Origin: Loxodes magnus
Taxonomy: Eukaryota; Ciliophora; Karyorelictea; Loxodida; Loxodidae
NCBI GenBank assembly: GCA_946699065.1
Contig: CAMPDV010001200.1
Coordinates: 1 to 64,000, forward strand
Direction: 5' to 3'
Length of the DNA: 64,000 nt
Shown: positions 12,735-39,700 of the stretch, one piece after another
How positions within the stretch are numbered: the first letter of the stretch is position 1
How the letters are laid out: every line of letters starts with the position of its first letter
Made by a program: the position numbers and the translations under genes
Notes under the pieces: model-generated
Database searches by the model: none
Seen by the model: only the letters and a program-made list of their open reading frames with translations
Told to the model about the DNA's origin: nothing

Positions 12735-13650
12735 AGCTCGCAACCTTCCTTCTTCTCACCGTTCTATCACAAGCTCCAGATACTAGCCATCTACCATCAC
12801 TACTCAATGCTATTGAAATTATATAATCTGCATGCCCTTTAAGAGTTTATATACATTCACCCGTATCAAAATTTCATATCTTAATCTCTTTGTCTCATGA
12901 TCCAGAAAATAGTACTCTCAAATCATCATTAATCTTAATACTACGTACAGCATCTTTATGCCCTTTCAAAGTTCGAATTGACTGACCTGTAGAGAAGTTC
13001 CATATCTTTAAAGTTTTATCTTTACTCGCTGAGGCAATTAATTTCATGTCATGAGATATAGCTACCGAATAAATTGGACCCGAATGACCTGTTAATGTTC
13101 TTTGGAGGATTCCAGTTTAGAAATTCCATATCTTTATCGTTTTATCAGCAGATGCTGAGACAATTCATTTCATGTCATGAGATATTGCTACCGAAAAAAC
13201 TCAATCAGAATGACCCGAAAAAGTTCATTGGAGGATGCCATCCTAGAAATTCCATATTTTTATAGTTTTATCAGCAGATGCTGAGATAATTCATTTCATG
13301 TCATGAGATATAACTACCGAATCAACTGAAGCAGAATGAATATCCAAAGTTCTTTGAATGATTCCAGTCTAGAAATTCCATATCTTTATTTTTGCATCAG
13401 CAGATGCTGAGACAATTCATTTCATGTCATGCGATATGGCTACCGAACAAACTGGACCTGAATGACCCCTTAATGTTCTTTGGAGGGTACCATCCTAGAA
13501 ATTTAATATCTTTATAGTGTTTTCAGGATATCCTAAACCAGAGACAATTCATTTCATGTCATGAGATATGGCTACCGAACAAACTGAACTAGAATTATCA
13601 GTCAATACTAAATCTAAAAAAATATTAAAAGAATTACCTTAGCTTTAGTC
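12735..13650 (-). CDS. WD40-repeat protein or orphan WD40 domain
   Basis: Seven WD40 repeats read in one frame from about 13635 down to 12745. Typical units are SVAISHDMKWIVSASADKT followed by IKIWNFQTGILQRTLTGH. Trp of SHDMKW, of SGSW and of KIWNF is encoded by TGA in several units, and Gln of ECIQTLKGH by TAA, which is strong evidence for the altered code. Seven repeats make one beta-propeller, a scaffold for protein contacts. The four central repeats are near copies. The first repeat is less conserved (LTDNSSSV for TGHSGPV) and the last lacks its final WD. Nothing recognisable precedes it. It could be a stand-alone propeller gene, but its likeness to the WD40 part of the gene at 25.8-30.8 kb suggests a severed C-terminal end of a NACHT-WD40 relative. 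A TGA just after KVAS (near 12735) probably ends it. Confidence 0.75.
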
Positions 13651-22744: not shown

Positions 22745-22807
22745 GTCAGTTTAGCTCAATCGATAGAGCACCAGCCTTTTAAGCTGGTGGTCAAGGGTTC
22801 AAGCAGT
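22745..22807 (+). pseudogene. Truncated tRNA-Lys (anticodon UUU)
   Basis: The 5' acceptor strand (GTCAGTT), the D arm (GCTC-AATCGATA-GAGC), the anticodon arm (CCAGC-CTTTTAA-GCTGG), and the 5' T-stem strand and T loop (AAGGG-TTCAAGC) are perfect tRNA-Lys. The sequence then breaks: the required CCCTT and 3' acceptor strand AACTGAC are missing and unrelated A+T-rich DNA (AGTTAATTAAAG) follows. The A box and B box are intact, so Pol III transcription could still start. It is either a tRNA cut by an insertion or deletion, or the head of a tRNA-derived SINE. Confidence 0.85.
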
Positions 22808-22839
22808 TAATTAAAGTAGTAATTAATTAACAAGAAGAA

Positions 22840-23984: not shown

Positions 23985-25115
23985 GTTTAAATCTTTTATC
24001 TCCTAAATTTTAACTATTAGTCTCGCTCACCAATTATAGTATCTTTAGATTATCCACTAGCAAAAAACCTATTTATATCATGAGTCTCAATTTTTTTTCT
24101 TCTAAGAATAATTCTAAATCAATGATATTTTAGACTTCACAGCAATCTCTTATCGAAACATGGGTAAACTAATTCTCTTTTTGTAACTTTACTCTTTTAT
24201 CTAATCAAACATCCTATATAATTTTATTTTTATTGAATTACTCTTTTCACTTTTAATTTCCTTCTTCAAGTCTTCTAGAAGGTACTTATATATTCTATAG
24301 TCAATGGAAGCTTTTATCTTATTTTGATAGCACTGTTTATTGCCTTATATTATCCCATTTCATCATACGTATCAAATAAAAACAATATTTTCTAAACTTA
24401 AAACTTTCTTTTTCTTAAATTATACTGTTTTAAAAAGCAAATTCTTTTAATTAATTTTCAAATGCTTTAACAGTTGGAACATTTTTTAATATATAAAAAT
24501 ATTCATGTTTATACTCTAGGTAATTTAAGGTTAGAATTTCTAAAAAAATAAATTTTTCAGAACCAGAATCTCAAAAAGTAATAACCCTGCTTAACTATCA
24601 TTATCTAAAAATTTGGAAACTTCAACTGCAGATCGTTCTATGTCTTAACCTTGGATTTGAAGCACATTATAAATTTAAAAAATATTCTTATTTCCTTACA
24701 TCTTATCAATTAATTGTTGATAATATTTTAATATATTTTTTACACTTTAAAGCAAGCCTATTCTATTCTATTGTTTAAGTAAATTAAAAAGCAAGCTTTA
24801 GAAATGTTAAAATTCAATTTTATATCAGGTTTTAATTTCCAAATGACGCAATATTTTAGAATTATAAGAATCCATCTTCGATATATTACCTTGCTAGATC
24901 ATAAGCAAGAATATCTAAGGTATTTAACATTAAAATTGTCTTCTTATGAATTTTTTCATTTATTAATCCATGACCCCTTATAAAGAAGTTCTTTAAGATG
25001 GAGATAAAATAAATATCCATAATTTCAACTCAAAACTACAAAGCAAACTGCCTTCTGGCAATCTAAATAACCTTGTAGAACATTCAAAATAATGATTTAG
25101 TAAATTATTTGGAAC
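23985..25115 (-). pseudogene. NACHT (STAND NTPase) pseudogene
   Basis: It is a diverged relative of the gene at 25.8-30.8 kb, on the same strand. Recognisable parts, in order on the - strand: a segment before the P-loop (from about 25115), the P-loop remnant WDSGSEKF for GDSGSGKS near 24560-24585 (the invariant Gly-Lys lost), Walker B FLFDTYDEMG near 24370, and HVSIRDCCEVQNI for HASIRDYYVARNI near 24150. The stretch between Walker B and HVSIRD is far shorter than in the intact gene, so part of the domain is deleted. No WD40 repeats follow. It cannot bind ATP normally. Confidence 0.75.
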
Positions 25116-25833
25116 GATAATAAAATTAAAAAATTAGATTTTTTATCTTAAAGTGTTAAAAAAACTTTTAAAATTTTGTTCCATCCCAAAATATTTTAGT
25201 CCGTCATAAAAAATCTCCTGTAGTGTAAAACACTGAGCAAAAACAAATATTTTATTTTCACATCTTTTACACACAATTTTATAAAAAATTCAATTCCTCT
25301 GAATACCTTATACCCTAACATACCCTCATACCCTCATTAAAATATCTTTTCTTCCAAAATCCTCTAAAACCTTCACTTTTTCTCTCCCTCTTAACACTTA
25401 ACTCTTCACTAAAAAAATATTAACTACACTCACATACTTTATATTAAATCCATTTAAATTCTAAAATTTAATTTATATTTATTCACCCCCAACCAAACTC
25501 ATACATTCGTACTCACACTTTTTCTAATTTCATTATTTCTCTTTTTTTTAAAACAGATACTACATTAATTTATTCCTTTTACTAACCTCAACCACTAAAT
25601 TTTTTCACTTTTATTTATAATTTTTCACACATCTTTTCTAAAATAAATTTAACAACTCTCATAATATCCTACTCTTTTATAGGCACTCACTTAACTTTTT
25701 AAACACTTATTATCTAACACAATACATCCCACTTGTCTTGTGAAATAATTTAAATCAAAAAAACATATGTTTATAATTTATAATTTACTTTACTTAATTC
25801 AATTATTATTATTTATAAAAATTTAGTCAAATC

Positions 25834-28800
25834 TTATCTCAATGAAAGATATTCGTCTTCTATTAGAATCTCATTTCTCTCCTCCGATGAAAACTTTTCA
25901 TCTTCACTTTGATTCTCACTCATCTCCTTCAATGAAAGATACCTGTCTCCCATTAGTATCACATTCCTCTACTCCATTGCCACTCCCTCAAATTCACACT
26001 GATGCACCTTCAAACCATTCCTTCCAATCATCCTCTTTAACAGATAATCCCGATGATCCTTTGCTGCCTCCCATATCCTTATTGTTGTATCTCCACTTCC
26101 AGATATTAAATACTTGTTGTCACTTGATAATACAAGAGATTAAACACCAGAAGTATGACCCTATATTGTTCTTATGATCTCATATGTTTACATGTCCCAT
26201 ATCCTTATTGTTGTATCCTCACTTCCAGATATTAAAAACTTAGAGTCACTTGATAATACCAGGGAATTAACATAAGAAGTATGACCCTCTAATGTTCTTA
26301 TGATCTCATATGTTTACATGTCCCATATCCTTATTGTTTTATCCTCACTTCCAGATATTAAAAACTTAGAGTCACTTGATAATACCAGAGAATAAACAGA
26401 CTTTGTATGACCCTCTAATGTTCTTATGAGCTCATATGTTTACATGTCCCATATCCTTATTGTTTTATCCTTACTTCCAGATATTAAAAACTTAGAGTCA
26501 CTTGATAATACCAGAGAATAAACAGACTTTGTATGACCCTCTAATGTTCTTATGAGCTCATATGTTTACATGTCCCATATCCTTATTTTTGTATCATCAC
26601 TTCCAGATATTAAAAACTTAGAGTCACTTGATAATACCAGAGAATTAACATAAGAAGTATGACCCTCTAATGTTCTTATGATCTCATATGTTTACATGTC
26701 CCATATCCTTATTGTTTTATCCTTACTTCCAGATATTAAAAACTTAGAGTCACTTGATAATACCAGAGAATAAACAGACTTTGTATGACCCTCTAATGTT
26801 CTTATGAGCTCATATGTTTACATGTCCCATATCCTTATTGTTTTATCAAATAATCCACCTGCTGATATTAAATACTTGTCGTCACTTGATAATATTAGAG
26901 AGGTTACAGTATCAGTATGTCTTTATAGAGGTTTAGTAAGATTATCTACCTATATGTCCCATATCCTTATTGTTCAATCTTCACTTCCAGATATTAAAAA
27001 CTTAGAGTCACTTGATAATACCAGAGAATTAACATAAGAAGTATGACCCTCTAATGTTCTTATGATCTCATATGTTTACATGTCCCATATCCTTATTGTT
27101 TTATCCTCACTTCCAGATATTAAAAACTTAGAGTCACTTGATAATACCAGAGATTTAACATAATCAGTATGACCCTCTAATGTTCCTATGAGCTCATATG
27201 TTTACATGTCCATTATCCTTATTGTTTCACTTCCAGATGTTAAAAACTTAGAGTCACTTGATAATACAAGAGATTAAACACCAGAAGTATGACCCTCTAA
27301 TGTTCCTATGAGCTCATATGTTTACATGTCCCATATCCTTATTGTTTTATCCTCACTTCCAGATATTAAAAACTTAGAGTCACTTGATAATACCAGAGAA
27401 TAAACATAATCAGTATGACCCTCTAATGTTCCTATGAGCTCATATGTTTACATGTCCCATATCCTTATTGTTTTATCCTCACTTCCAGATATTAAAAACT
27501 TAGAGTCACTTGATAATACCAGAGAATAAACAGACTTTGTATGACCCTCTAATGTTCTTATGAGCTCATATGTTTACATGTCCCATATCATTATTTTTGC
27601 ATCATCACTTCCAGATATTAAGAACGTGTTGTCACTTGATAATACCAGAAAATTAACACCAGAAGTATAACCCTCTAATGTTCTTATGAGCTCATATGTT
27701 TACATGTCCCATATCCTTATTGTTTTATCCTTACTTCCCGATATTAAATACTTGTCGTCACTTGATAATACCAGAGAAGTTACACGATTAGTATGACCAG
27801 CTATGGTTGGCATTTAACCAAAATTAACCTAACTCATATTTGCGCCGTTGAATTTACAATTCCGTAACCATGCTCCTCTAAAATTCACCCTTGATAAATT
27901 AGCACCACTCATATCACAACCATCAAACACCGAATCACTTAAATCCGCCCCAGGCACCTAGATATTCTGAAGATCTGTAATCTACGTAAACTGATAATCC
28001 ATCCAATTCAGTATTGTTATACAATTAGCACCCACTGTTTATAAAGATTTATTGGATCTTGTCCACTTCACTATCTCCAATAAATTTTATTGAAATGTAA
28101 CTGAACTATCAATCTCACTTATAAACTACTAGATCTCCTTATTATCCACTATCGAATATCTGTTTATTTCGTGAGCCTCTATTGAATTTATGCTATTTTG
28201 CTAATTTAAGACTAAATTTACTATATTCCTTGCCACATAGTAATCCCTTATCGAAGCATGAATAAACTCAAACCTCTTTTAACAATTTTCCTCTTTTATC
28301 TATATCAAACATCCTATGTGGTTGGATTTATCAGTCAATTAATCAATTCATTACTAGATTTCCTTATCCATACTCTCTAACTTTAACTAACCTCTTAACA
28401 TCTAGTATGCCGCACTTATTTAAATATCCTCAAATAACTTTAACAATGTTTGTATTTCCTCCTTTTATTTATTTAATTCTTTTAACTTTTATTCAGTTTT
28501 ATCATTTCATTTATTTATAAAGATCTCGTATATCTTTGCCCTTTACACCTTTTTATCTACTCCACTTCTCAAATACTCTATTATTTACTCCTCACTCATA
28601 CATATATATAACATAAAAGGATTATTTAGAATTTCCATTAAACCCGGAATACTTTAGATGATGCTCATTTACTCCTTTACCTTTTCAATCATTTCTATTT
28701 ACTACTCATTCACAATTTAACTTGGATCTTAATTTGCACTTTAACTAGCACCTTGATTCTATTTTCTTAAGATTAAACTTATATATTATTCTATCTAACT

Positions 28801-30780
28801 TTGATCAAAAGGCTTTATATATACCTCCTCCAACTGCTTTACCTAAGCACTTTCATTTCTATAAGGAGAAAAGAAATTTTTATAATTATCAGCTGTTAAA
28901 GCATAATTGATTCTACAAGTAATTATATACTTTGCCTAAGGGTATTTATAGCTTATTTTATTTTTACTCATTATGCTAATATAATTTCCTAATTCATCAT
29001 AAGCATCAAATAGAAACACCATCTTCCTAAACTTCGAACTTTCATTTTCCTCAATTCCATAGTTCTATAAAGCTGTCTCTATTAATTTGTCTTCATATTA
29101 TTTAATGGTTGGAAGATAAACGTATATCGGTAGTCAGTCATGCTTCTACTCCAGATACTTAAATGCTAAAGTTTTCATAAACAAAGATTTTCCTGAACCT
29201 GAATCTCCCAAAAGTAATAATCCAATTTTATCTTTACTATCTAAAAAGTTCTAAATTTTGCTTTCAAGATTATTTTATTCCTTAGAATTAGGACTAGGAG
29301 CACATAATAAACTTATGTAATATTCCTACTTTTCTTAAATCTCATTTTACAAATAGTTTCTCATATTCTAATATATTTTATTATCTATACCCTTTAAGGC
29401 TAATCAATTATCCTCCATAGTTTAGGTAAATTAAGTAACATGGTCCGAATTCTTTAGTATTTCTATTACTATCTACTGTTCCCTATCATTTTAAATTAAG
29501 CTTTCATTCTTTTGCTTAAATACTCTCTCCTTGTAAGTTGTAGCTACTTAGTTCTTGTCAATACTTAGTTCTAATAATGATTTCAAAGCAAAGTATCGAA
29601 TCTACCAATCTTTATCCTTACACAATTGCTCTAGCAGCTAGCACGATTCCTTAACTAGTTCTGGAGAAGCTTTAGGATTTTTAATCATATGCTTCAGAAG
29701 ATAACATGCTCTAAATCTTAAGTCCAGTTCTTCTTTCAAAATGAGACTTTTAAAATATTCAAACTTTATTTACGATTATTACGTTACCAAGTCATATGTA
29801 AGAGCATCTAAGAATCTTATTCTAACTATTTTTTTTAGTTGAATTTTCGAATTTATTTATTTAGTTCCCCAAACAATGAAATCCTTTATTATGGAGATCG
29901 ACTTAGTATCTGTTGTTCCATCTCCCAACGATAAAGCAACTACCCATTAAGTGATTTTTAATGCCTTACAGAAAACATTAAAGTAATCAGAATCTTTATT
30001 GTCTGGAATACTTTCCAATATCATCTAACTGTATCTTAAGTCAAAATCAAGCTCGGGACCTCCTATTTACTTTATATTTACTAACTTTAATGCAAACTCA
30101 ATTTTTTACATGAGTTTCCCTTTCGTTTCTGCAATTATGAAAAAATCATTATTATTCTTATTTTTCTTACTTTTAGAAGAGTTTTACTCATTCTTCTAAA
30201 GCAACATATACAATAACTCAGGAAGATTTTATACAAGCTACTCCTTCAAGAGCTAAGACCAACCTTCAGTATATTAATGAGAGACTATATCTATAAATTG
30301 ATTAATTAACACCAAAGGATCATCTAGTTTGGCCAGTTTATTTTTTTGAATGGTTTAAATTCCTTGTAGAATTAATTCCATCTTTTACTAGTTTAAACCC
30401 TCTTTTAAGAGATTTAATCCTTCTTGATAAATCTTTAATTGAGGGGTTTAACCTTTTTACTTCGTACTGCAACAGCCTCCTCCCTTCAGTTTCATACTTT
30501 TCTAGAATTTAAAGTTTTAGATTTATTTGATCCGCACTGCTCCTTAACAAGAAGTCGTCTTAAAGCTTTCTTTTAGATAATTTGTTTCGTTCATCTAAAA
30601 CTCTTTAACATCTGGTATTTCTACGTTTACCAGATAAGGATAATTTTGAATCAAGCTGTAACTTTCAGTACCTTATTAGTATCGTAAGGCATTTTCTGCT
30701 ATTTGTCCTTGAATATACTCTTCCATTAGTCTTGGCAAAGTTTTATTATCCATAAGCTAATTATTACTTGATTTTAGCAT
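25834..30780 (-). CDS. NACHT / pentapeptide / WD40 STAND protein (NLR-like), apparently intact
   Basis: A single frame of 1,649 codons runs from ATG at 30780 (an alternative ATG at 30753) to TAA at 25834-25836, with TAA/TAG=Gln and TGA=Trp inside. I checked the frame at the P-loop and in the last WD40 repeat. Domains by residue: helical N-terminus; HEAT/ARM-like helices about 340-410 (LLEQLCKDKDWQIRYFALKS); NACHT with P-loop GDSGSGKS at 525-532, Walker B FLFDAYDELG near 590 and the winged-helix signature HASIRDYY near 840; a short pentapeptide stretch about 940-975 (GADLSDSVFDGCDMSGANL); 14 WD40 repeats about 990-1572, i.e. two propellers; and an acidic C-terminal tail. Repeats are mostly 126 bp (42 aa) and almost identical. 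Such proteins are ligand-triggered ATP-dependent signalling switches, for example fungal HET-E/D/R. That role is inferred here. No stop other than the TAA fits the change in base composition. Confidence 0.88.
25950..27810 (-). repeat. 14 homogenised WD40 units of 126 bp
   Basis: The motif CCCATATCCTTATT or a close variant recurs near 26070, 26191, 26317, 26444, 26570, 26696, 26822, 26954, 27080, 27206, 27326, 27452, 27578 and 27704. That is 14 units spaced 126 bp apart, with a few of 120-132. Most differ at a handful of positions clustered after the conserved GHT (variants such as KSVYS, SYVNS, DYVNS) and at the end of the strand. Near-identity with focused variation indicates recent unequal exchange or gene conversion. 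Confidence 0.9.
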
Positions 30781-30999
30781 AAATCTAATTTAAGTTTATC
30801 CCTCAACCTTTTTGAGTATCTTTTAATCCTTAAAATTTGCGTCCGTTTAAATTTGCTAGGCTAATCAGATTATAACATCAGGAGATTTTAGAAATCCATA
30901 TAATTAGCTTTAAGACTGAAAGCCATGACAGCTTTCAAGAATTTAACCGAAGATAAAGCAATTTGAATTGCAATATTGAGGCATTTTATAATATTTTAA

Positions 31000-35900: not shown

Positions 35901-36200
35901 ATAACTCTTACAACTTTCGGCACTCCTTTGCTCCAACTAATATATCAGTACTCTTTACCTCATATCTAGCTTAATAAGTAGTAAGTAATTGCACTAATTT
36001 GAGGAAAAAAAGGCAATTTTGTTTGAAGTAAAAGAATCTCTTCATTTAAGTAATTAACATTAGCAGCAGAAATCTCGCTACTCTCAAGGCCTCTTTTGCT
36101 CCTAGGAAGTGAATGAGTAGCCTGCAAGTATATATTAGATAAATTTATAATTAAATACTTCTAAGGAGTTTGTTGACATTTTAAAATCTATATCTGAATA
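33000..36200 (-). CDS. Unrecognised family Y gene, copy B
   Basis: A T-rich + strand and a protein-like - strand over about 3 kb. From about 35850 to 33720 one frame reads through with natural composition, for example NDPSGVLEKQYKPDGTICEG (near 35640), NSWSQQDEQFLYLRRVKW (near 34930) and ITRVTPQRLALQQVIRAIRE (near 34060). The N-terminal part (SLPRSKRGLESSEISAANVN, near 36100) is in another frame, so an intron or frameshift lies near 35850. The 3' part is similar to 17.3-17.9 kb. The SWSQQDEQFL segment is weakly Myb/SANT-like; I would not name the family on that. Confidence 0.5.
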
Positions 36201-36209
36201 TAAAATAAA

Positions 36210-36575
36210 GTAGTTTAAGTTTAGTCTAAGTTGTAAAGGAAATAAATAAAATGGTTAAATAGTAATTGAATGGGATGCTTAATAAAATGAAAAATAATTA
36301 AGATTAATAGAAAGATTCGGCAAAAAGCATCATTATAGCATACCATAATAGAAATAAATATAACTATTAGAAATTATATTGATTGAGTCTAAAAACTTAC
36401 TTTAGAATAAAGATCTAATCTTGCTAAGCATAGCTTAGAATTATGAATATTATTAAATTGGTTATAACAAATAAGAATAAAAGTTTGTAGCTAAAAATCA
36501 CTAATTCAAGTCTTTTAAACGTTAGCTCTATTTTGTGCTTAGGCACTTTTCTTCCGGTTTCTTATATCATTTTTC
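36210..36575 (+). other. Spacer or intron upstream of the CK1-like exon
   Basis: The + strand reads moderately like protein, and part of it weakly resembles family X around 15.0 and 32.6 kb. It ends in a pyrimidine-rich run and TTTTTCAG at 36570-36577, a plausible splice acceptor for the kinase exon that follows. Confidence 0.3.
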
Positions 36576-36577
36576 AG

Positions 36578-36670
36578 TTGGTACTAAATTTCATCAACCA
36601 GCAGAAATCAAAGAGGACTGCTTCTGGTTAGGACTTAAAATAGGAAATAGATAATTCGGAGATATTTATT
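36578..36670 (+). pseudogene. Casein kinase 1-like pseudogene, 5' part (glycine loop)
   Basis: The + strand frame gives AEIKEDCFWLGLKIGNRQFG followed by DIY, matching the CK1 N-terminus 'yrLGrKIGsGsFGdIYlG' (glycine-rich ATP loop). The reading stops at 36670, where the full-length LINE is inserted, and resumes at 43302 after the duplicated target (FGDIYLKGNLLTKSK). A likely splice acceptor precedes it. Confidence 0.75.
36655..36670 (+). repeat. LINE target-site duplication, left copy
   Basis: TTCGGAGATATTTATT, identical to 43302-43317, flanks the LINE at 36671-43301. The 16 bp lie inside the CK1-like coding sequence (FGDIY). Confidence 0.93.
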
Positions 36671-36699
36671 AAATTAAATTTAACTAAAAAAATTTGTGG

Positions 36700-36739
36700 T
36701 ACCTTCAATTTTCAGAATATGTTCTTCCAATTGAAGGTA
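36700..36739 (-). repeat. 3' terminal hairpin of the LINE
   Basis: A perfect 11-bp inverted repeat, TACCTTCAATT / AATTGAAGGTA, with an 18-base loop, 30 bases from the element's 3' end and downstream of the ORF. It is probably the RNA structure recognised by its own reverse transcriptase. Confidence 0.8.
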
Positions 36740-36767
36740 TTATATTGTTTTTAAATGTTATTATATA

Positions 36768-39700
36768 TCAAGTTTATTGCTCTTCAGAACTAATTTTCTA
36801 GTTTAGGTTTTTTTTTTCTTCTAAGTATTTCCTTTCTTGTTCATTTTCAAGCTAATTTTCATTTTTTTCTATTTTCTGTTGTCAATCTTCTTCTTCTTCA
36901 TCTTCGCTATCGTTTTCCTCTTCGTTCCAATCTTCTTCTTCCTCATCATTTTACATCTAATTTTGTTGGACATCTTATTCTTTGTTTTCTTGTTTTTATT
37001 ATTCTTCATTCTCTTCATTAACATTTTCTATTCTTAGATTTGCTTCTTTTTATTATTTCTCGTATTTCTCTTCTTCTTTCTCTTGTTATAGAATTTCTCG
37101 CCTCCTTTTAATAAACATTTGAATGAATATTTTTATTTATTCATCCACCATTTCTATTTTTTTCTTAGGAAAAGAGTTTATATATAGTTAATCGTAACTT
37201 ATTAGTTTCAAAATATCACATTAACCAATTTTGGAGATCAATCATTCTCTTATATCAATGTAATATATACATTCCATTACATGTTGGAGAGTGTCATATT
37301 CTCCGCATATACAAAAAGGGTTTTCAATAATATAATTTCGATCTTTCAGAGTCTTTCGAAATGCGTAAGACTAACTTCTAATCTTATAGATGCAAATTAT
37401 TTCTTTCAAATATTTTTTGTTTAATTTCGTGTATGTTATTTTGGGGAATTATCTTAGGTTTTAAAATTGTTCTGTATATATTTATGCAGTAGGCATTCTG
37501 CTGAATCTTGAAAGAGCTAATTCAAAATATGTCTTTTATATTTATGCCTATACATATTTACTGAATTAAATTAAGTTGTTATTGTGCTCTTTATTATCAA
37601 TTTCTATTTTATAAAATGAGGCCAATTTCTAAACTTCATCATAATATTGATATCCCTCTTTATAATTATTCTCAAACAATATTCCAATAGACGATTAAGG
37701 TTGATTTTAGCTTTCATTTCTAATCTTAAAGAAAAACCTGAAATACTTAAGAGCCATCATGTGTTTGAATGGCATCCAGTTAAGGTCTACAAAGCATGAT
37801 TCATTAAACGTATTTCCTGCCGATTAAAAGGCTTTTCTGGCTATTAATCTCATGCTCTTTTCAATTCTGTTCAAGATTCCATTTATTCCATATTGCACAG
37901 TCCAAGGTATTAAGTCCCCACCGTATTCTGCTTTAGGAAGCGTGAACAGTCTACAAAGCATTTTGAAATTTCAAGGTGTTACGTTTCTATATCTTGATAA
38001 TGCAAATACTGCCTTTTTAATTGCTGAAAGATAGTTTGCAGCAACGTATTTGCAATGGTTAATTAGATTCTTCTTTTGGTGAAGGATCACCCCTAAATAT
38101 GTGACTTGCTGTTTCTAAATTATTGCTTGGTCTCCTATTTTTAAGTCTAGTTTTGTTTCTTTGCTTTTCTTTTTTAAAAACTATAACGTTTCGCATTTGG
38201 AGACATTTATTTTAAGAAATGTCTTATTGAAAATGGAGTTTGCTTCATTAATAAGTGACTACATATTTTTTTATGAGTTCGATAATAGGATTAAATCGTC
38301 AGCTCAACCTCTACAAGTGAACCTATTCTTAAAATTAGCACATCTGAATCCTAATATTTCTCCTTTGTTTTCTATATGTCTAATGACAATGTCATAGTAT
38401 AATAATGCAAGCACAGGTCCATGCGAACTTCCTTACATCACTCCATTGCTAAATTTCAATTTCTTAGAATTTGTTCCGTCTATAATAAAGGAAGTAGTTA
38501 AGTTATTATAAAAAGATTCTAAAGCCAAGATGAGACCTAGTGGTAATTTGACTCTTCTTAGTTATTTAAAAAGAATTCTTCTTTCAATAGAATCAAACAT
38601 TTTCTCTACGTCAATTAAAGTTGCAATCAGTTTAGTTTTTCCTTTCGCTTGTTTTCGATAAAGATCTATGATTTATTGGATCACTCATATTTATTAGGTG
38701 GTTTATTTGTTCTTCATAAACCCCATTTAGCTTGAGTGGATTAACTGTCTTTCATAAATTATTGAGTAGAGTCTCTTCGTAAGGGCCTTATCATATAATT
38801 TCAAAATAGTATTGATAAGGGAAATAGGGCGTCAGTTTTTTCAATCGTCTTTACTTCCTTTTTTGAAAATGGGGATTATGATAGAAGTATTAAGCTCTTC
38901 AGGAATCCTTCCAATTCTAAGCATGTTATTTATTAAAGAATGAAGCATCAACGCTAGATAATATCCTGCATATTTTAGCAGTTCTCCTTTTATTCCATCT
39001 GACCCTGCTGCTTTACCATTAGGAATTAGACTTATAAATTAGGTAATCTCTTCTATTGTAAAAGGATCGAAATTTTATAAGTAAGAAAAGGGTTAATTTT
39101 GAATTTCTATGTTATTTTCATAAATTGCATCTATTTTCTAGTTACTTAGTTCAATCTATTGGTTAGTTAAATTCGAATGCTTGCTAAATACCTAATTTTC
39201 CCATGCTTCTACAAATTAGTCCTTCAATTCCTTATTAAAGTTCATCAAATTTCTTTGTCTAGGGTTAAGTATTTTCTTTGCTTAAGAAAACATATCTTTT
39301 GTGGTTTCATTGAGGAGTAGGAATCTGTTTTTGGCCTTTTGTTTTTTAAATTTTCATAAATGATGCTAAAAGCTTTTTCATAATGTGTTCGCTCTTTAGT
39401 GAAGATCAATGATTTCTTAGTTATTCCTCCCTATATATGCTAAAGTTTCTTTGTACAATTAATTTGCTCTCTTTGCTTCGATATATTTTTATGTGAGGTC
39501 CTTAGGAAGTCTATTATACTTCGGGTCTGGGATAAATGAGCCTAAAACTTAATCTGCATTGTTCTAAATGCAGTCTCTAATATAAGTGTATTAATCTTCT
39601 AAGTTATCTCTATCAATTAGGAAGAATACTTCTACTTAATCTTTGAATGAATTCTAATAGATAAATTTATCAATAGGATCCTACAGTCTACTTATTTTGT

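Follow-up and report, generated by a model that had tools for sequence, protein, structure and literature searches.

What kind of receptor, if any, is encoded by a gene of Loxodes magnus that joins a NACHT NTPase domain to two WD40 propellers, and what might it recognise? The gene lies in a stretch of 64,000 nucleotides (assembly GCA_946699065.1, contig CAMPDV010001200.1, positions 1 to 64,000), here called the window, whose source is very probably the macronuclear assembly of this karyorelict ciliate. It is read on the minus strand at 25837..30984, starting with an ATG at 30984 that is conserved and running up to a TAA at 25834-25836 (1716 codons, with TAA and TAG taken as Gln and TGA as Trp). 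An earlier note on this DNA, made from the letters alone, had described an NLR-like STAND gene at 25834..30780 and proposed a fast-evolving recognition receptor. Recognition of intracellular microbes by non-fungal single-celled eukaryotes is, to our knowledge, largely open.

Judging from its sequence and those of its relatives, the gene is probably a member of a large, diversifying family of cytosolic STAND/NLR-type receptors, most likely sensing microbes. This reading draws on the domain order, on the presence of the gene at no fewer than 48 places in the genome, on arrays that as a rule form two seven-blade propellers, on an excess of replacement changes in the loops between strands d and a and between b and c, and on the varying units of the arrays.

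Domain architecture

The encoded protein starts with a helical region (29371..30984; all features of the gene are on the minus strand) that is HEAT-like toward its C-terminal part (29566-29637), followed by the NACHT NTPase domain (28780..29217) and C-terminal repeats. The HEAT match remains below the Pfam cut-off (18.2 bits against 23.5; E 0.0028 and 0.001 in two scans). The NACHT domain is identified by homologue alignment and by a Pfam match (E 8.5e-5) that is likewise below cut-off (22.9 bits against 26.7), while two homologues (L080 and L003) exceed it. Both the sequence and the homologue alignments contain a Walker A motif, GDSGSGKS (29185..29208), and a Walker B motif of the hhhhDxxDE type, FLFDAYDE (28993..29016). 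The glycines and Lys of the P-loop, a Cys-Arg pair at residues 622-623 and Trp758 are invariant across 12 sequences, and a six-sequence alignment has both the P-loop glycines and Lys and the acidic residues of Walker B invariant. Pentapeptide repeats (27820..28008, Pfam E 3.1e-16) precede the WD40 array.

The array comprises 14 WD40 stretches by Pfam (E 9.7e-167), arranged as two seven-blade propellers. Units 1-7 occupy 26923..27798, unit 7 closing with QVDNLTKPLQ, and units 8-14 occupy 26035..26922. The TRF score of the 126-base array is 2475 against a threshold of 50. All the domains that had been named from the letters alone are borne out: HEAT (weakly), NACHT with good Walker A and B motifs, pentapeptide repeats and 14 WD40 units. 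The description of the units as 42 residues long and almost identical in DNA needs correction, as 12 of the 14 have 42 residues (one has 40 and one 44), and near-identity applies to some units only (pairwise DNA identity 66-99%, mean 85.6%).

A model of the WD40 region (mean pLDDT 87, pTM 0.57) has short strands and one low-confidence stretch, between units 7 and 8. The best Protein Data Bank (PDB) match of the array, by sequence and by structure, is the highly repetitive WD40 protein 2ymu, presumably of prokaryotic origin, a 577-residue chain that is propeller only. Apaf-1 (3sfz), seventh among the structural matches, resembles the Loxodes gene product in being a STAND ATPase with C-terminal WD40 propellers; it has a CARD effector, NB-ARC instead of NACHT, and 7+8 blades. 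The model of residues 1-700 is helical and of low confidence (pLDDT 57), and a fold search with it gave no match at E <=0.001. No homologue was found for residues 96-480. The names Qnr, MfpA and PipB, returned by searches for an N-terminal effector, reflect the pentapeptide part only, and the single PADLOC match, a HEAT-ARM model, was matched by the WD40 part.

A large family in the Loxodes genome

The earlier note had pointed to further NACHT-WD40 paralogues as something to look for, and they are numerous. In the assembly of 705,730,643 bases in 7843 contigs, a protein search with residues 1-990 found 46 places including the window. In each, the match spans residues 125-990 or more within a single frame; apart from the window, identity is 70-88%. 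This number is a floor, scoring having covered 46 of the 2762 candidates. Two more places came from a DNA search and bring the family to at least 48 places, the window included. Paralogues within this one assembly were used in place of a comparison of strains. Of the 48 places, 35 were read (the 30 best and five weaker ones of the protein search), 13 of them to the array end. In 34 of the 35, six or more countable WD40 units like those of the window gene come after the pentapeptide block, the exception being L130 with a single unit.

On contigs C932, C596, C835, C669 and C2290, copies are spaced 26-47 kb from one another, as if long segments had been duplicated in tandem. Directly downstream of the window gene lies a decayed, frameshifted partial relative of the HEAT-NACHT part (24013..25089, minus strand; best stretch 37% identity over 165 columns, E 3e-19). 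Because a similar remnant lies, by eye, downstream of copy L130, gene and remnant were perhaps duplicated together. Beyond the family, the genome holds 31 further matches to the NACHT model PF05729. Among eight of these (L089-L096), two (L091 and L094) align to the NACHT of the window gene at 23-27% identity, and none of the eight aligned to its WD40 part within flanks of 1.5 kb.

Replacement changes in the WD40 units

For the HNWD genes of Podospora anserina, PMC1805685 describes positive selection at WD40 codons 7, 9, 25 and 27, which flank the conserved codons 8 and 26 and belong to the d-a loop and the b-c turn of the blade. By the landmarks of those authors, the conserved flanked residues, these codons map to unit positions 5, 7, 23 and 25 in Loxodes, a set (the hot positions) that was therefore named in advance. 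In the window array, replacement differences peak at positions 4, 5, 7, 23 and 25, while Val6 is invariant and Asp24 is invariant in the 13 units that have it. The named set ranks 3rd of 111,930 sets of four. The ratio of replacement to synonymous differences (pN/pS), obtained here and below by counting methods and not from a phylogenetic site model, is 2.13 at the hot positions of the window gene (4.45 without units 7, 8 and 14) and 0.46 at the other positions 1-31 minus position 4 (0.42 without the same units). A lower-bound count of changes gives a binomial p = 0.006. The earlier note had held that uniform variation over the unit would speak against a diversifying receptor; variation is instead concentrated at the hot positions.

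The model places positions 4 and 5 of each blade in the d-a loop, position 7 where strand a begins, positions 23-25 between b and c, and position 15 between a and b. The hot positions are thereby predicted to lie on the propeller face described for Podospora (PMC1805685).

The same comparison was extended to 310 WD40 units from 26 non-redundant copies (292 units before seven arrays were completed). Nine of the 35 loci were dropped, eight that had at least 40% identical units with a kept locus and L130, which has no countable unit (L097 is the window again); the 26 copies retain two related pairs, L109/L110 and L119/L122. The count took in units with a spacing of 38-48 residues, the last one of every array excepted, and for positions 19-25 the 77 of 310 units with other loop lengths were left out. 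Across this family set, pN/pS is 2.86 at the hot positions (95% interval 2.39-3.49; 200 bootstraps over loci) and 0.42 (0.38-0.47) at the 37 other unit positions. The codons from NACHT to the pentapeptide block have a pN/pS of 0.35 over 27 loci (mean DNA identity 0.91), which indicates purifying selection. Positions 6 and 24, between the hot ones, are nearly fixed, whereas a single hot position may hold up to 17 kinds of residue. The 233 units with the standard loop carry 189 distinct four-residue combinations, and at least 299 of the 310 units are distinct. The 19-25 loop is also of uneven length, with 98 variants among 292 units. Of the 111,930 sets of four, the named one comes 9th in the family data, positions 4 and 15 varying more than 25. 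Mean p-distances of the flanks, 0.046 on the 5' side (25 loci) and 0.210 on the 3' side (13 loci), are smaller than pN at the hot positions (0.55). The proposal of a fast-evolving, diversifying receptor is thus strengthened by a replacement excess in the window gene and in the family.

Could these units vary without any role in recognition? In a recently amplified, repeat-rich family, loops might drift while unequal crossing-over homogenises the remainder. The genome is described as repeat-rich (PMC11441545), copies lie 26-47 kb apart on the five contigs, a decayed relative adjoins the gene, and one copy has a single unit, all of which would suit this explanation. We consider it quite unlikely, since replacement at the hot positions is about threefold the synonymous level while positions 6 and 24 stay nearly fixed, the NACHT region is under purifying selection (0.35), and all 46 places of the protein search match in one frame.

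Turnover of units within arrays

Unit number changes between copies. Of the 13 arrays read to their end, nine have 14 units (L128 with one unanchored), and the others have 15, 17, 7 and 1. The one-unit array is that of L130 (C33:1259130-1266915) and the seven-unit array that of L129 (C376:190218-198024). L127 and L129 are 97.5% identical over 4.7 kb, yet carry 14 and 7 units, respectively; by eye, the shorter L129 is without units 3-6 and a later block of L127. As anchored, 22 of 26 copies have the closing unit of the first propeller in 7th place, two have it in 8th and L128 in 6th; one copy lacks it, and two copies have an additional propeller-closing unit. For 15 of the 26 copies this count covers the first dozen units. 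Residue differences at hot positions amount to 0.749 between units within an array, 0.819 between units of different arrays at other indices and 0.816 at the same index. The corresponding synonymous differences are 0.076, 0.101 and 0.093.

Relatives and known systems

For eleven of 14 homologues, the alignment covers the greater part of residues 470-993 (22.8-27.9% identity). The order NACHT-pentapeptide-WD40, often with PF23948 (ARM_5) ahead of it, was found in Mortierellomycota and in other loci and proteins. The NLRs of Mortierellomycota and Mycoavidus have the nearest architecture, with the same order of NACHT, pentapeptide and WD40 parts and 23-26% identity over the matched part. By eye, the fungal sequences compared have WD40 units that resemble one another less than those of Loxodes do. 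The N-terminus also differs, being not recognisably ARM_5 in Loxodes: Pfam gave no match to PF23948 there, and hhalign without the NACHT part gave a score of 23.5 (probability 1.5%, E 0.034), with 20 shuffles at or below 21.5. An hhalign value of 98.8%, obtained with the NACHT start included, is ascribed to NACHT; it fell to 1.5% once this was removed.

Of 88 loci, 16 were carried forward; the tree has 33 rows, with L004 left out. A group of 27 (support 100/100) takes in the Loxodes copies, and six other prokaryotic NACHT rows stand apart from it. The fungal members tested from Mortierellomycota belong to this group, as do a metagenome-assembled genome (MAG) of Chlamydiae, a Legionellaceae MAG, a Myxococcales assembly, Reticulomyxa and IMG/VR contigs. 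Loxodes forms a separate long branch (1.48), and the branching inside the group of 27 is not resolved. Further, the protein of homologue P0019 is named from an endosymbiont of Mortierella elongata. A check of the hot positions was tried on four relatives; the IMG/VR relatives L083 and L082 (six units each) share them, with ranks 1 and 11 of 31,465, and L002 yielded one unit.

Such a mixture of bacteria and eukaryotes may indicate that intracellular bacteria and their eukaryotic hosts have exchanged this gene family, which would regulate symbiosis rather than defence. The well-supported grouping of Loxodes with these fungal, bacterial, Reticulomyxa and IMG/VR sequences points this way, as does the endosymbiont name of P0019, and PMC11291939 describes Mortierellomycota NACHT-PPR-WD40 NLRs as common to Mycoavidus endosymbionts, with their role open. 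However, the inner branching and the long Loxodes branch give neither direction nor date of a transfer, and common origin says little on function, so that a symbiotic role seems to us rather unlikely.

The Podospora genes het-d, het-e and het-r likewise join NACHT to a C-terminal array of highly similar WD40 units. Unit number and order are reported to be unstable in them, and selection to act on two position pairs, each enclosing a conserved residue (PMC1805685, PMC2873952). Loxodes has the same gain and loss of units within arrays and the same selected positions. In contrast to Podospora, no HET domain was found in Loxodes (it is absent from Pfam scans of the N-terminus), the protein has a HEAT-like N-terminus and a pentapeptide block, the arrays form as a rule two propellers of seven, position 4 is strongly variable and loop length varies. 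The likeness to HET-E/D/R drawn in the earlier note accordingly extends to NACHT, WD40 and the selection pattern, and stops at the N-terminus. The two also differ in scale, with at least 48 places in the ciliate and a Podospora family of 10 (PMC1805685).

Might the Loxodes family then serve in the recognition of conspecifics, for mating or for self/non-self distinction, as HET-D/E/R do in fungal cell fusion? The kind of unit and the selected positions are the same in both. Yet at least 48 places in one genome fit a broad repertoire of sensors better than a mating locus. Ciliates, unlike fungi, do not fuse vegetatively, and nothing links the family to conjugation. A role of this kind therefore appears improbable.

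Weighing a receptor for microbes

If the gene product behaves like known NLRs, its propellers would bind a ligand through one face, most likely a molecule of an intracellular bacterium, a virus or another microbe, or a host protein altered by a microbe. Binding would release the autoinhibition of NACHT, which would bind nucleotide and oligomerise, and the N-terminal helices would relay a defence or cell-death signal. As arrays lose, gain and recombine similar units, perhaps across copies as well, fresh specificities would emerge, with selection retaining novel combinations of residues at some five positions in each blade. The likeliest use of so large a repertoire would be defence against microbes entering the cell. 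The diversifying recognition receptor of the earlier note is retained in this account; the particular roles listed there (self/non-self, mating, parasite sensing) are unsupported.

Several points weigh against a diversifying receptor that senses microbes. For the N-terminus, searches with Pfam, NCBIfam, PDB sequences, homologues and folds gave no usable known effector domain. Positions 4 and 15 are variable too, and 15 is outside both loops. The rank of the hot positions is by itself a weak argument, because the loops of any WD40 protein may vary most, and A+T bias may lower pS and so inflate pN/pS. In the relative L009 the hot positions fare poorly (rank 1224 of 31,465, pN/pS 0.87). The window copy itself lacks the TGA stop of its family, running about 31 residues beyond the family end and then into TAA. 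Some near-identical copies may be alleles, because the L. magnus assembly is unphased (PMC11441545).

Other results bear on the supposed recombination and exchange of units. In the window array, the four-gamete test fails for 37 of 136 informative site pairs; recombination would explain this, but repeated mutation could too. Outside the hot positions, the fraction of differing residues is 0.137 for units of one array; for units of different arrays it is 0.157 at other indices and 0.134 at the same index. Within- and between-array differences being nearly alike, homogenisation within arrays is slight. Identical units common to different copies number six only, all in two closely related pairs.

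On balance, and with less assurance than for a receptor family as such, sequence data lean toward a free-living ciliate with a combinatorial innate immune repertoire, in which dozens of NLR genes would carry about five diversified contact residues per blade, reshuffle units within arrays and possibly draw on a pool shared between genes. If true, this would be, as far as the literature was searched, the first such receptor system in an alveolate, with the contact positions of fungal allorecognition reused. Among the open-licence papers listed, judged largely by title, no report of a ciliate NACHT-WD40 or NLR family was found. The architecture of NACHT, pentapeptide repeats and WD40, known from Mortierella fungi and their endosymbionts, is now extended to a ciliate. 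Further, a signature of diversifying recognition at positions that can be named in advance makes the question testable in one organism.

Genetic code and gene ends

The frame from 30780 to 25837 encodes 1648 residues and depends on 94 TAA/TAG codons read as Gln and five TGA codons read as Trp. The plus-strand reading of 25834..30780 is full of stops, and with the default code no open reading frame of 150 amino acids is listed anywhere in the window. A single long frame with all domains, as had been claimed, therefore exists only on the minus strand under a reassigned code. For Loxodes, PMC11441545 gives translation table 27, in which UGA is the sole stop and also encodes Trp, and a macronuclear assembly of 706 Mbp for L. 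magnus.

The reading of TGA as Trp is supported by the Trp columns of homologues, by the second WD40 stretch of the window (described below) and by the units of the family. The homologue columns at TGA codons hold Trp in 9 of 15 aligned letters: 5/5 at Trp758 (28507..28509), 4/5 at Trp811 (28348..28350) and 0/5 at TGA549. A further TGA, at 30865..30867, is kept in 24 of 24 copies whose upstream region could be aligned, and among 304 units of the family, 12 encode the canonical WD Trp by TGA. A pseudogene with the in-frame TGAs as stops was rejected, as homologues have a conserved Trp at two of the three testable TGAs and TGA codes for the canonical Trp in some units of the family. For TAG, the homologue columns favour Gln (20 of 84 letters). 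The TAA columns count against TAA as Gln, with Glu in 18 and Gln in 5 of 85 letters from few sequences, and this assignment is based mainly on the published Loxodes code. A Condylostoma-like code, with TAA as stop, was considered because the earlier note had ended the gene at TAA, and was dropped in view of the TGA at that place in other copies and of the assembly size, which agrees with Loxodes.

The start at 30780 proposed earlier is replaced by the ATG at 30984, which lies 68 codons upstream, is conserved among copies and is joined to 30780 by a frame common to them. Its start motif occurs in 25 of the 26 non-redundant copies and in 24 of 27 in alignments; the two most distant of the 24 aligned copies diverge immediately upstream of it. 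At the other end, the 12 other complete copies all terminate with Y(L/F)(S/L)L, at most one further residue and TGA. The additional C-terminal residues of the window copy (25837..25929), absent from all 12, resemble by eye a partial repeat of ..RNxIL..D.YLSL. The stop region is placed at 25687..25836, where the TAA at 25834-25836 takes the place of the TGA of other complete copies and the next in-frame TGA begins at 25689. Translation could continue through TAA to that TGA, because UGA is the only stop reported for Loxodes (PMC11441545). The earlier description of the gene as intact has to be qualified at the 3' end, where TAA stands instead of the family's TGA.

Other features of the window

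Ten stretches of the window were scanned, yielding a second WD40 stretch, a reverse transcriptase and one weak PH-GRAM match (E 0.0038). The WD40 stretch (12739-13614, minus strand) has seven units of the 126-base type with, by eye, TGA at conserved Trp positions; it ends near TGA-TAG, and no N-terminal domain was seen upstream by eye in three frames. The reverse transcriptase (36005-39404, minus strand; PF00078, E 2.4e-13) reads only with TAR as Gln and TGA as Trp, and the W of its motif N-W-RPISL is, by eye, encoded by TGA. Two codon models run over the window gave noisy segments. Across 24001-26000, which covers the 3' end of the gene and the downstream remnant, the GC skew is -0.47, the coding strand being C-poor. 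Two tRNA genes lie on the plus strand, a tRNA-Asp at 1195-1266 and a second one (Rfam) at 22745-22816 with, by eye, the anticodon UUU (Lys).

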